From positions 1-20,222 of the IMG/VR virus record IMGVR_UViG_3300025286_000182: 20,222 bases of DNA; one strand, written 5' to 3'. The notes under the pieces were generated by a model. It was not told the origin of the DNA. It did not search any database and saw only the letters and a list, made by a program, of their open reading frames with translations. The position numbers were made by a program, and so were the translations under genes. The DNA comes from a virus. Shown here piece after piece: positions 9,259 to 17,545 of this stretch; position 1 is the first letter of the stretch, and each line of letters opens with the position of its first letter.

Positions 9259-9291
9259 ACCCTTACTGATTAAATTCGGTAAGGGTTTTTT
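9259..9291 (+). terminator. Strong intrinsic terminator after the first early gene
   Basis: ACCCTTAC (9259-9266) and GTAAGGGT (9279-9286) form an eight-base-pair stem with a 12-base loop, followed by a run of T residues to 9291. It is oriented to stop rightward transcription, separating the first early gene from the dense operon that follows. Confidence 0.88.
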
Positions 9292-9348: not shown

Positions 9349-9510
9349 ATGAGTAATTATATGTTTGCAGAGTTCAAAAGCCAAGAAGAATATCAGGATG
9401 CTTATAAATCGGTCATGGACAATACATTAAAGGATGATCAGTTTGAGTTAGTGATATTCATTGAAAGGCTAAAATCAACAATGTTAACAGAAAGGAATGA
9501 CAATGGATAA
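9349..9510 (+). CDS. 53-residue acidic helical protein
   Basis: Unrecognised. It begins MSNYMFAEFKSQEEYQDAYK and appears mainly helical (VMDNTLKDDQFELVIFIERL), with no cysteines. The GGAAAGGAAAGGGC leader before the ATG is strong. The stop lies inside the start region of the next gene (8-base overlap), indicating coupling. It opens the long early operon after the terminator; no separate promoter was found in the 57 bases between. Confidence 0.62.
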   Translation: MSNYMFAEFKSQEEYQDAYKSVMDNTLKDDQFELVIFIERLKSTMLTERNDNG

Positions 9511-9668: not shown

Positions 9669-10013
9669 ATGCCAAGTTCACCAATACGCAGGCAACTGAC
9701 AAAAGATGAATTCCCAAAGGACTGGGAATCATTAAATAAAGTAATAATAAAAGATAATAATACCGAAGTATACTTAGCTGTTGACTTTAACATAGATAAT
9801 TTAACAGCAAGTTTAATGTATTGTTATATTGAAGATGATCCTTCATTAATGGTCAATTGGGGACATGTAGAAGATCTGGAGAAAGAAAGTAGACCAATAC
9901 TGAATACAATACAAGACGTTACTGGAGTATCATTCCATGATAGTATATGGGTTCAAATGACAGCAACCGAAACAGTAAGAGAACATGTAGATGAAGTTCT
10001 CCCATCTACTTAA
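9669..10013 (+). CDS. Small protein, paralogue of the one at 12213-12617
   Basis: 114 residues, no known family. The start at ATG 9669 is chosen for its AGAAAGGAAAAGTG leader; an upstream in-frame ATG at 9630 lies inside the preceding gene without a leader. The segment SLMYCYIEDDPSLMVNW followed by ILNTIQDVTGVSF aligns with YLMYMKIKYIKKDPDLVF and VLDVIETVFGINF of the later protein. The preceding DWESLNKVII and YLAVDF match DNWNL, MVI and YYRIEF. The two are probably an old duplication. The structured non-coding stretch begins at its stop codon. Confidence 0.75.
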   Translation: MPSSPIRRQLTKDEFPKDWESLNKVIIKDNNTEVYLAVDFNIDNLTASLMYCYIEDDPSLMVNWGHVEDLEKESRPILNTIQDVTGVSFHDSIWVQMTATETVREHVDEVLPST

Positions 10014-10404
10014 CATTCCATCTGAGTGATGGAGGTCGCACATAAGCAGATTCGACCCTCTTATGTGTTATACAAAGGGGCAGTTCTTCTTTATTATCTG
10101 CCCCTTAAATTTGTGGTAGGCTCTCAAAATAAGCAAGAAGTACAGAAAAACAGGATATTCGGCTGAGGGACAACATGAACGATAATGTCGTTTGGAATTA
10201 CCGACTAGTGCTGATAATAACTTGCCCTGTTGACTTGTCGAGTTAAGTCATAATCCTCGATAGTCTACCACATACTATTAAGATTGATACTGGTCGTATT
10301 TTTATGCCCAGTTCAATGGTTAACCAAAAAGGCTGAGTGGGTGTATAGGGATGGCCTCCTTAGATAGCATACATGAATATTACCAGTATGCCCAGCCTTT
10401 AAAA
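10014..10404 (+). ncRNA. Candidate structured non-coding RNA 1
   Basis: A gene-free island of about 415 bases in an otherwise gap-free operon. By eye, in order: hairpin TCCATC/GATGGA (10017-10022 with 10028-10033); CACATAAG/CTTATGTG (10039-10046 with 10060-10067), interleaved with GGTCG/CGACC (10034-10038, 10053-10057); a nine-pair stem AAGGGGCAG/CTGCCCCTT (10075-10083, 10098-10106). Then an 11-pair closing helix (10112-10122 with 10262-10272, one G-U) encloses an H-type pseudoknot: TGACTT/AAGTCA (10231-10236, 10245-10250) and TCGAG/CTCGA (10238-10242, 10256-10260), with loops of 1, 2 and 5 bases. Last, AAAGGCTG/CAGCCTTT (10328-10335, 10393-10400) encloses GCATAC/GTATGC (10367-10372, 10386-10391). 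I cannot match it to a known RNA family. Strand follows the operon. Confidence 0.6.
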
Positions 10405-10428
10405 TTAAATAAAAGAAAGGAAATACAA

Positions 10429-10668
10429 ATGAGCAAACAGGGAATAGCATGGAGTAAAGTAAATGAGTTCATAAGTAATAAAGCAGGTATGTTTTTAAAA
10501 GATTTACCTGACAGAGTATGTATGGAAGATTGGGTTGATGATGACATGACAGAAAAAGAAATAGATGGCATTGTCCCAGACATAGCTTGGGAAATACTTG
10601 AAAGTTCTGGAATGGATAGAAAAACTGTAAATATACTGTGTTATGGAGAAGATTGTGATGAGTGGTAG
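10429..10668 (+). CDS. 79-residue acidic protein
   Basis: Unrecognised. It begins MSKQGIAWSKVNEFISNK and is rich in Asp/Glu (EDWVDDDMTEKEIDG), with a C-terminal CYGEDCDEW. The acidic surface and small size would fit a DNA mimic or a protein-binding inhibitor, but no family can be named. The start is set by the AAAGAAAGGAAA leader; an in-frame ATG at 10351 lies within the structured RNA and has no leader. It overlaps the next gene by 11 bases. Confidence 0.75.
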   Translation: MSKQGIAWSKVNEFISNKAGMFLKDLPDRVCMEDWVDDDMTEKEIDGIVPDIAWEILESSGMDRKTVNILCYGEDCDEW

Positions 10669-11016: not shown

Positions 11017-11325
11017 ATGAAACTACTAACTAAAAAAATAACAGAACAAGCAACAAAACAATTTGACAAAGGCTCTGACCTTGACGAGCAGATGATTGTA
11101 GCTAAGTTCTTTGATCCAATGGGTAGTTGGAGATGGTACTTAATGAATCTTGCAGATGATAAGGACTATGCTTGGGGCATAGTTGATGGACATGCTGTAG
11201 AGATGGGTTCATTCAGTATAAGAGAGCTACAAAGTATACAGTTACCACTAGGACTCGGCATTGAACGTGATAAGTATTTTGAGCCTGTTAAGGCAAGTGA
11301 ACTATGGAAGGAATTGAATGCATAA
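11017..11325 (+). CDS. DUF2958-domain protein
   Basis: 102 residues matching the DUF2958 pattern throughout: a start of MKLLTKKITEQ, then VAKFFDPMGSWRWYLMN, WGIVDGHAVEMGSFSIREL, LPLGLGIERDKYFEP. The length is normal for the family. DUF2958 proteins occur in plasmids, integrative elements and phages with no established function. The ATG follows AAAGGGAAAACAATA. The stop overlaps the next start (TAATG). Family assignment is from memory of the conserved GSW and GLxIERDxYFxP motifs. Confidence 0.8.
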   Translation: MKLLTKKITEQATKQFDKGSDLDEQMIVAKFFDPMGSWRWYLMNLADDKDYAWGIVDGHAVEMGSFSIRELQSIQLPLGLGIERDKYFEPVKASELWKELNA

Positions 11326-12780: not shown

Positions 12781-13464
12781 ATGCCTAAATATAAAATAAT
12801 AAAAGACTATGATGGCAATCTGTTATACAAGAAAAAAATATCCGATCATGAATGGTATGATGATGAGGAATATAGATTTTTAAGAAAAAGACAGGTTGAT
12901 GCACAGCGGAATAGAGATGAATCACTTGTAGGAGAGTGGGAGCATCCTTCTTCAATTAATATATTAAGAAGAATAGATAGAAATTTCTCACCTTATTCAC
13001 AGTACAGAAAACAGTATAGATGTAATTATTGTTCCTTTACAGATTCTTATAGCAGAACCATAAGAGAACATCTAATAATTGTACATGGTATAGATGATGA
13101 TAGTGGGGAGACATCTTCAAAACAATGTCATGCCTGTAAGGAAAAATATAATAAGCTGTATAAAGAAGAAAAGTATATAGACTGGAATGAATATAAAAGA
13201 AGAAAACATCACTGGGGAGTATGTAGCAAAGTACAGGAAAGAGCAGCTACTTATATTACTGTTGAGGCTTCTACTTGGACAGAAAACATATTTGACACAG
13301 CTACACTTCCTATAAATATTAGACATGAATTGCTTAACAAGTTTGAAAAGAGTTATATAAGTAATAAACATGTATATAGCGAGTGTCAACCACGATATAT
13401 TGATAATGTAACTACAGCCTATCTCTCAGATGTAGTGAAAGGAATATTATCACATGAAAACTAG
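12781..13464 (+). CDS. C2H2 zinc-finger protein
   Basis: 227 residues with a canonical C2H2 finger: C81 and C84 in YRCNYC, then H97 and H102 in REHLIIVH, spacing C-x2-C-x12-H-x4-H. A second putative site follows: C116/C119 (CHAC) with H143/H144 and C148 (KHHWGVC). The N-terminal 75 residues are charged and rich in Arg, Tyr and Asp; the C-terminal part is helical and unrecognised. C2H2 fingers are rare in phages; a DNA- or RNA-binding regulator is possible. The gene starts immediately after the preceding TAA and overlaps the next by 11 bases. No strong Shine-Dalgarno is seen, so reinitiation is likely. Confidence 0.78.
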   Translation: MPKYKIIKDYDGNLLYKKKISDHEWYDDEEYRFLRKRQVDAQRNRDESLVGEWEHPSSINILRRIDRNFSPYSQYRKQYRCNYCSFTDSYSRTIREHLIIVHGIDDDSGETSSKQCHACKEKYNKLYKEEKYIDWNEYKRRKHHWGVCSKVQERAATYITVEASTWTENIFDTATLPINIRHELLNKFEKSYISNKHVYSECQPRYIDNVTTAYLSDVVKGILSHEN

Positions 13465-15686: not shown

Positions 15687-15757
15687 GAGGGGTGAGTTTA
15701 AACGTGTTGCTCTCACGTTGCAGGTTCTAACATCACCTGCCCTTTCTACTCACCCCT
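15687..15757 (+). ncRNA. Candidate structured RNA 3: three-way junction
   Basis: A ten-base-pair closing helix, AGGGGTGAGT (15688-15697) with ACTCACCCCT (15748-15757), encloses two perfect hairpins: AACGTG/CACGTT (15701-15706, 15714-15719; seven-base loop) and GCAGGT/ACCTGC (15720-15725, 15735-15740; nine-base loop). The hairpins are adjacent with no bases between. All 22 pairs are Watson-Crick. AAATTTT follows, so it could act as an unusual terminator, a processing site or a leader element for the next gene at 15790. It occupies most of a 111-base gap in an otherwise packed operon. Confidence 0.62.
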
Positions 15758-16540: not shown

Positions 16541-17238
16541 TGACTACTACGTTATCACTAAGGGATAAGGTACGCAACAAGGAGCTGAGAACTATTCCAG
16601 TTTCTGTGTTAAGACCAAATCCAAAAAATCCTCCAGAGAGGACAATGGACAATGCATCGTTCCAAACTCTTCTGCGTGAGGTAAGAAGGTTCGGAGTTGT
16701 AGAACCTATAGGAGTTCATAAACGTACATCAATGGTTATTAATGGTCATCGCAGGTGGATGGCAGCTAAGGCAGCTGGTCTTAGTAATATTGATGCATTC
16801 GTTTATGACATAACAGATGAAGAGATGGATGAACTTTTTCTTGCTCTTAATACGACAGGAAGAAAATTCACCTCTGGTGAAGAGTTGTTCACACATCTTA
16901 AAGGTGGTAAGATAACTAAAAAAACAATGAATGCAATAGATCACATTGTAAAGTTATCCTTGTTTGGGAAGAGAACCAGAGACCACCATTTGAGCATTAT
17001 AAGAGCTGGGATGAAAAGTCCAGTTACTTATCGTAGTGCAATTCAGATGTTTACAAAGCTAACAGAGGAAGTCCGAAGGGGTTCTCTCCTAAAGTGGCAA
17101 TACCTCTGTCTTGAATGGATAACCAAAGTATCTGGGCCATATAAGATGAAGAACTTCTGCGATGATAATATAGACGCAGATGTGTTACTGGATGCTGTTA
17201 AAAAACAAAAACCTATTAAACGTTCTTGGAGTATTTAG
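16540..17238 (+). CDS. ParB/Srx N-terminal-domain protein
   Basis: 232 residues. The N-terminal ParB-like domain (about residues 18-110) shows LRPNPKNP, FGVVEPIGV and INGHRRWMAAKAAGL; the last corresponds to the conserved G-(E/H)RR-xxAA box that contacts nucleotide in ParB/Srx folds. The C-terminal half is helical and basic and may bind DNA (SPVTYRSAIQMFTKL). ParB centromere binders are usually longer with a dimer domain, so this could be a transcription regulator, a ParB-like nuclease or a partition factor. No ParA is in the window. Three TGAGAC repeats and an inverted repeat lie directly downstream and are possible binding sites. Confidence 0.83.
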   Translation: MTTTLSLRDKVRNKELRTIPVSVLRPNPKNPPERTMDNASFQTLLREVRRFGVVEPIGVHKRTSMVINGHRRWMAAKAAGLSNIDAFVYDITDEEMDELFLALNTTGRKFTSGEELFTHLKGGKITKKTMNAIDHIVKLSLFGKRTRDHHLSIIRAGMKSPVTYRSAIQMFTKLTEEVRRGSLLKWQYLCLEWITKVSGPYKMKNFCDDNIDADVLLDAVKKQKPIKRSWSI

Positions 17239-17254
17239 TAGGTTAATTACCTCA

Positions 17255-17282
17255 TGAGACACACATGAGACATTGGTGAGAC
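17255..17282 (+). repeat. Three TGAGAC direct repeats at 11-base spacing
   Basis: TGAGAC occurs at 17255-17260, 17266-17271 and 17277-17282, each starting 11 bases after the last, close to one helical turn. The first two are extended to CATGAGACA. The first also lies in the palindrome CTCATGAG (17251-17258). Same-face spacing is typical of iterons or cooperative operators. They lie between the ParB-domain and ribbon-helix-helix genes, both of which could bind here. Confidence 0.72.
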
Positions 17283-17334
17283 TATCCTCGATATAGAAAA
17301 ATATTTACTATAAATATAAAATATATTGAGGATA
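17283..17334 (+). promoter_or_regulatory. 12-base inverted repeat next to the TGAGAC repeats
   Basis: TATCCTCGATAT (17283-17294) pairs with ATATTGAGGATA (17323-17334), 11 Watson-Crick pairs and one G-T, around a 28-base AT-rich loop. It starts on the base after the third TGAGAC repeat. No T-run follows, so it is not a standard terminator; an operator or an RNA stem upstream of the ribbon-helix-helix gene is more likely. Confidence 0.55.
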
Positions 17335-17392
17335 TATCACTTAAATAAATGTAACTTTAAATACTAATTATAAGGAATATTAAGGTAATTAT

Positions 17393-17545
17393 ATGGATAA
17401 CATTGAAGGTAAAAAGTTCGCAACATATCAATTTAAAGTACCACACGAGCTGTGGACGAAATTCAAGATAAAATCTCTCACAGAGAAAAGTCCAACCTAC
17501 AGAGACACACTGCTAGATCTGATTGAGAGGTATGTTCGCACATAA
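17393..17545 (+). CDS. Ribbon-helix-helix DNA-binding protein
   Basis: The 50-residue protein reads as a complete CopG/Arc-like fold: a beta-strand KFATYQFKVP, helix A HELWTKFKIKSL, a turn, and helix B TYRDTLLDLIERYV. Such proteins dimerise and insert paired strands into the DNA major groove, usually as autorepressors. An AAGG lies upstream of the ATG, and the stop overlaps the nuclease gene start (TAATG). The iteron-like repeats and inverted repeat in the 150 bases upstream are the obvious candidate operator. Fold assignment is by pattern only. Confidence 0.7.
   Translation: MDNIEGKKFATYQFKVPHELWTKFKIKSLTEKSPTYRDTLLDLIERYVRT

Follow-up and report, generated by a model that had tools for sequence, protein, structure and literature searches.

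Comparative evidence for a three-hairpin leader RNA at the boundary of a phage accessory-gene slot

In T4-type phages, the PeSL elements described by Arbiol et al. in 2010 are reportedly intergenic stem-loops located at sites where small accessory genes are exchanged. PeSL are defined by an early promoter with a stem-loop, and their copies are dispersed in the genome. The put RNA of phage HK022 is formed by two hairpins. The put RNA is reported to suppress the pausing and termination of RNA polymerase (PMC9378689). The ornate RNAs GOLLD, ROOL and OLE are much larger, often lie near tRNA islands and are represented in Rfam (PMC12286853). Comparative genomics has also provided intergenic candidate RNA motifs, with conserved covarying hairpins and no known function (PMC2864571).

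The locus described here lies in a viral window of 20,222 bases (the whole stretch of DNA analyzed), in which the minus strand carries P22-like portal and large terminase genes and the plus strand carries an early operon. The sample series to which the related contigs belong suggests a marine habitat for these phages. A first-pass annotation had pointed to a gene-free island in the operon and had interpreted positions 10014 to 10404 as one large structured RNA of no recognizable class, for which GOLLD and ROOL were the relevant comparisons. The island was indeed free of genes over 415 nt (10014-10428), from the stop codon of a gene for a 114-amino-acid (aa) protein to the ATG at 10429, and it belongs to no class that we could find: covariance models from Rfam, including GOLLD and ROOL, gave no match at the gathering threshold in the window or in 13 related loci, and the relaxed threshold gave only chance-level matches to snoRNAs. 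The locus is similar to GOLLD and ROOL in being a structured noncoding RNA carried by phages, with function unknown. It differs from GOLLD, ROOL and OLE in that no tRNA or tmRNA was found in the 20-kb window, no Rfam family matched and only about 95 nt are conserved; proximity to tRNA genes is frequent, not universal, for GOLLD- and ROOL-type RNAs, and the contig is only 20 kb long. We set aside a group I intron, RNase P and tmRNA as identities, since their known motifs showed no matching core and the island interrupts no gene.

Relatives were gathered with the 79-aa protein encoded downstream of the island (nine contigs), with the leader motif (more contigs) and with an alignment of the 114-aa protein (17 loci). 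After near-identical contigs were removed, 13 distinct sequences were retained, the window included. They share a common order, in which the 114-aa gene is followed by CTGAGTGAYGGAGG (or a sequence very similar to it), a first hairpin, TTATAC, a second hairpin that is GC-rich, AAATTTAAT, a ribosome-binding site (RBS) and a gene. This leader was present in all 13 distinct contigs that have the 114-aa gene and downstream sequence, and positions 10016-10111 of the window conform to the arrangement.

On the plus strand, the leader (10016-10111) is composed of three hairpins, P1 to P3, with their linkers. P1 (10018-10032), recovered in two alignments (A5 and A8), pairs CCATC with GATGG around GAGTGA. 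It is the weakest helix, because its 3' strand, GAGTGAYGGAGG, is nearly invariant and the pairing partner varies (CCUC, CCAUC or other). P2 (10038-10068) consists of nine pairs between GCACATAAG and CTTATGTGT, with pairing probabilities of 0.92 to 1.0, and changes on both sides were found across the relatives in six of the eight pairs tested. It is followed by the linker TATAC (10069-10073), invariant in all 13 sequences, and by P3 (10075-10106), which pairs AAGGGGCAG with CTGCCCCTT at probabilities of 0.85 to 1.0, shows changes on both sides in five of nine pairs and is followed by AAATTT. The strands joining the three hairpins, GAGUGAYGGAGG and UAUAC, are nearly invariant, and the arms of P2 and P3 covary strongly.

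For P2 and P3 together, 97.7% of the cells in the alignment were paired, and 11 of the 17 pairs had changes on both sides. The covariation score was 0.508, compared with 0.237 for shuffles and no more than 0.134 for slid controls, so the compensatory changes exceed both kinds of control. These values come from an alignment (A6) of gap-free P2 and P3 arms that leans toward structure, because it was placed by hand in the P2/P3 register and the loop tips, together with extra linker bases, were removed; the slid controls and a leave-one-out search served as safeguards. For that search, a covariance model carrying the hand structure (R2), which replaced a model with a weak automatic structure (R1), was built from the 12 other sequences. 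It matched the leader of the window, which had been left out, at an E value of 1.7e-11, the next match being at 0.007. Over the 0.6 Mb searched, each phage had one leader, at this locus only, and the search of other loci gave no convincing further copy.

Among the pairing cells of the leader, 31 were G-U and none was A-C. Therefore, it is in RNA of the plus strand that pairing is maintained, and not in DNA or on the minus strand. Among the relatives, no conserved reading frame runs through the leader. A small open reading frame (ORF) starting in GTGATGGAGG was rejected as not conserved: in the window it is open over 45 codons, in two relatives (L003 and L009) it is open for a stretch, and in other relatives it is short or lacks a start. 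A pattern scan with GAGTGAYGGAGGN{0,8}GCA was too unspecific to be informative. From these sequence comparisons, we conclude that the leader forms a genuine RNA structure, selected as RNA of the coding strand. It shares this type of evidence with the intergenic candidate motifs (PMC2864571) and differs from them in its clear genomic setting at the boundary of a slot for accessory genes; no Rfam family matched it at the gathering threshold. It is best called a structured-RNA candidate, new by Rfam, in an unusual setting.

Like the T4 PeSL, the leader provides intergenic stem-loops where related phages exchange small accessory genes. We considered a reading at the DNA level, with TTATAC as an extended -10 box and the hairpins as a mobile promoter/stem-loop unit of the PeSL kind. 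In most members TGTTATACA resembles TGnTATAAT, and the position in an exchange slot may be likened to that of the T4 cassettes. Such a unit is nonetheless highly improbable here. The TG spacing is not kept in two relatives (L005 and L178), the variable length of P2 excludes a fixed -35 box, and G-U without A-C pairs indicates selection for RNA pairing in P2, which would sit upstream of the transcription start. A promoter consensus scan found no strong plus-strand site in the leader, with one site at 9 of 12 positions (10069-10097); TTATAC looks like a -10 box, but its context is not fixed. In contrast to PeSL, the leader has no clear promoter, its hairpins covary as RNA, and a single copy per phage, not many dispersed ones, was present in the records searched.

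Folding energy was compared with that of dinucleotide shuffles. The whole island folded with a z score of -3.5 (0 of 100 shuffles as good), and its opposite strand gave -2.8, so folding energy alone does not fix the strand. The signal came mainly from 10014-10111 (z score of -5.45, or about -5 for the leader), and positions 10112-10404 alone gave about -2 (5 of 200 shuffles). Since windows of 150 nt across the early operon had a mean z score of -0.8 with a standard deviation of 1.3, the energy of the second part is unexceptional and that of the leader is exceptional. An empty-site comparison with L003 to L011 delimited this second part: the relatives retain the leader and the flanking genes and lack the whole of 10112 to about 10404. 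The island is therefore composite, with a conserved leader of about 95 nt followed by a lineage-specific insert of about 290 nt (10112-10404, plus strand).

The first-pass annotation was thus borne out on the presence of structured RNA, with comparative evidence for the first 95 nt or so, a part that it had counted among the flanking hairpins, but not on a single large RNA built around a closing helix and a pseudoknot. According to that proposal, all of 10014-10404 would be one noncoding RNA that folds on its own into a tertiary structure, and relatives would keep only its 5' part. The full island does fold better than shuffles, the probability of the closing helix is near 1, and the pseudoknot has a good geometry that is rare in shuffles. 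With the insert missing from relatives and most of the folding signal confined to the leader, we consider a single large RNA very unlikely. A virion-associated role, also raised at that time, found no support, and position and conservation point instead to a cis-acting intercistronic element.

The 11-pair helix and the pseudoknot noted within the insert were recovered at the stated places as predictions from the single sequence, and more than eight helices were predicted for the island, in line with the count of at least eight. Element A (10112-10272, plus strand) is closed by 11 pairs between 10112-10122 and 10262-10272, one of them G-U, with pairing probabilities of 0.81 to 1.0; the region 10106-10278 had a z score of -1.8. 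It encloses an H-type pseudoknot (10231-10260, plus strand) with stems of 6 and 5 pairs and loops of 1, 2 and 5 nt. Stem 1 pairs TGACTT (10231-10236) with AAGTCA (10245-10250), and stem 2 pairs TCGAG (10238-10242) with CTCGA (10256-10260). Element B is a single hairpin (10273-10326, plus strand; z score of -2.75, 1 of 200 shuffles). Element C (10328-10400, plus strand; z score of -1.55, 13 of 200 shuffles) lies just 5' of the RBS and has a predicted 8-pair stem, AAAGGCTG with CAGCCTTT, around two hairpins.

No homologue of the insert was found in phages, plasmids or the records of the relatives; blastn against the latter gave short A-rich matches at the RBS end only. The insert sequence is known from one contig, because the contig of a near-identical relative (L002) ends inside the leader. 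It is absent from all relatives with an orthologous locus, and the comparative evidence covers the leader pairs only. An assembly artifact is formally possible, but both ends of the insert join conserved sequence smoothly. There is also a real, if lesser, chance that the insert is unstructured filler or a decayed accessory gene in which helix and pseudoknot arose by coincidence. When the insert was shuffled, a helix of at least 11 pairs came up 23 times in 400 (6%) and a pseudoknot comparable to the predicted one 123 times in 20,000 (0.6%), the latter figure being optimistic because the criterion was set after the motif had been seen; the z score of about -2 is inside the spread of the early-operon windows, and the insert has no homologue. 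On the other side, the helix and the pseudoknot would be jointly rare by chance, no decayed gene was recognized, and a closing stem directly before the RBS is also a feature of other predicted modules.

Two such modules were predicted in relatives. In L184, a second one follows the leader (1215-1344; 8-pair closing stem; z score of -1.5), and in L004, one precedes the 79-aa gene (2867-2980; z score of -0.5); both fold little better than shuffles. Given that the slot holds differing predicted modules in these two phages, the extra 290 nt of the window are, by analogy, probably a second lineage-specific module between leader and RBS, although no sequence similarity to the other slot modules was found and no relation to them is demonstrable. 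The apical sequence GTCATCATTGGAKAARAGTTAAC is common to P2 of the L004 leader, P2 of the L178 leader and the second module of L004, with differing stems, and this tip was not found in the bacterial genomes searched. Its occurrence in three modules of two phages hints, at the level of sequence, at an exchange of sub-structures. It is conceivable, if rather doubtful, that the slot as a whole combines a fixed boundary leader with swappable folded RNA modules before the cargo, the helix-pseudoknot module of 290 nt among them, as a modular layer of RNA control.

Structured elements were also seen in other records. The more distant phage L205 has a 157-nt element (98-254) with a 15-pair closing stem and a z score of -4.6, as well as a gene-free stretch of about 420 nt (2325-2745) between terminator-like repeats with a z score of -0.8; neither matched an Rfam family. 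In G007 (13054-13152, plus strand; in L148), an element of 99 nt lies directly 5' of an RBS and a 121-codon ORF; its closing stem has 11 pairs, its inner hairpin is GC-rich, and its z score is -4.9.

The genes on the two sides of the leader behave differently. The 114-aa gene (MPSSPI...; 9669-10013, plus strand) is always directly 5' of it; its relatives have 37 to 49% identity, and one has 96%. The protein matched no Pfam or PHROG family and had no prophage relatives in the genome_contigs collection, and its AlphaFold model was poor (pLDDT of 50), too poor to judge it as an RNA binder. Downstream, the 79-aa gene (10429-10668, plus strand) is preceded by the RBS AGAAAGGAAA and has relatives in nine contigs at 65 to 87% identity. 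Its start is fixed by a conserved MSKQ: an in-frame extension to 10351 was rejected because in the relatives the protein begins at MSKQ, behind a good RBS. The model (pLDDT of 87) predicts a small, helical protein, for which no structural match was found at an E value of 0.001 or below.

The 79-aa gene follows the leader in six distinct phages, and a different gene does so in each of the seven others, giving eight kinds. Thus, the leader forms the left boundary of a slot for accessory genes. The right edge is a gene (11017-11325, plus strand) that we take to be DUF2958-like; it was found there in the loci that reach that far, 0.2 to 1.0 kb further downstream. Since the downstream gene varies and the upstream gene is constant, the leader is tied to the 114-aa gene and the boundary rather than to a particular cargo. 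Paralogues of the 79-aa protein (33 to 36% identity) were seen upstream of the 114-aa gene at L002 7-225, L184 318-551 and L181 9196-9429 (minus strand). One ribosome-binding motif, ACAGAAAGG, is repeated in front of early genes at 9487, 9653 and 11529 (plus strand) and in related phages, on the coding strand only, and such short repeats could act as seams for gene exchange.

The leader is most likely a new cis-acting intercistronic RNA, whose function we infer. We give about even weight to the view that the island, composite in origin, acts in cis as an intercistronic RNA region, with the leader acting across the slot boundary. During transcription, the hairpins of the leader would expose the invariant single strands to some factor, for which a host or phage RNA-binding protein, the ribosome and RNA polymerase are candidates; binding would then determine to what extent RNA from the upstream gene is continued, retained or translated into the slot gene. 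The RBS of the downstream gene was unpaired in the predicted fold, which therefore gives no direct view of a switch. HK022 put is comparable as a short phage cis-acting RNA with consecutive hairpins in an early operon; the leader differs in having three hairpins and a mid-operon position, and the likeness seen here is one of architecture, not of antitermination.

The constant link to the upstream gene means that a 3' element of that gene also fits, and this is the main rival reading: the leader would end, process or protect the mRNA of the 114-aa gene and be unrelated to the accessory genes. The leader always comes directly after this gene while the downstream genes vary. An intrinsic terminator combines a GC-rich stem with a U-run, but P3 is followed by AAATTTAAT, in relatives too, and was not called by the terminator scan; moreover, the operon runs on in the same direction. 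We regard a purely 3' role as unlikely, though less so than the DNA-level unit or the single large RNA, and favor the intercistronic RNA acting across the boundary. Within the early operon, the same scan did call a good terminator-like hairpin that has a T-run, at 9259-9286 (plus strand), between a 144-aa gene and the next gene.

Two further sites in the window had structural features. A three-way junction (AGGGGTGAG...CTCACCCCT) at 15688-15757 (plus strand; z score of -5.5) precedes a 145-aa gene and includes the hairpin GCAGGTTC...ACCTGC and a conserved CCTTTCT. Homologues in three related phages (G002, G010 and G003) carry some compensatory changes, and its CCUUU could pair with the AAAGG of the ribosome-binding site. 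At 17230-17400 (plus strand), just 3' of a ParB-like gene, direct repeats similar to ATGAGACA precede a long hairpin (17283-17334), and a similar arrangement was found in G002 near 10173-10314. This is possibly a partition or replication site.

Phage accessory genes are often thought to include genes for host takeover and counter-defense. To our knowledge, little is known of how newly arrived genes are controlled in the exchange slots of phages. A conserved RNA that keeps its place at the boundary as different genes come to lie behind it offers a concrete and testable candidate for such control, and the succession of GAGUGAYGGAGG, a hairpin, UUAUAC and a hairpin provides a sequence handle for slots in other phages.
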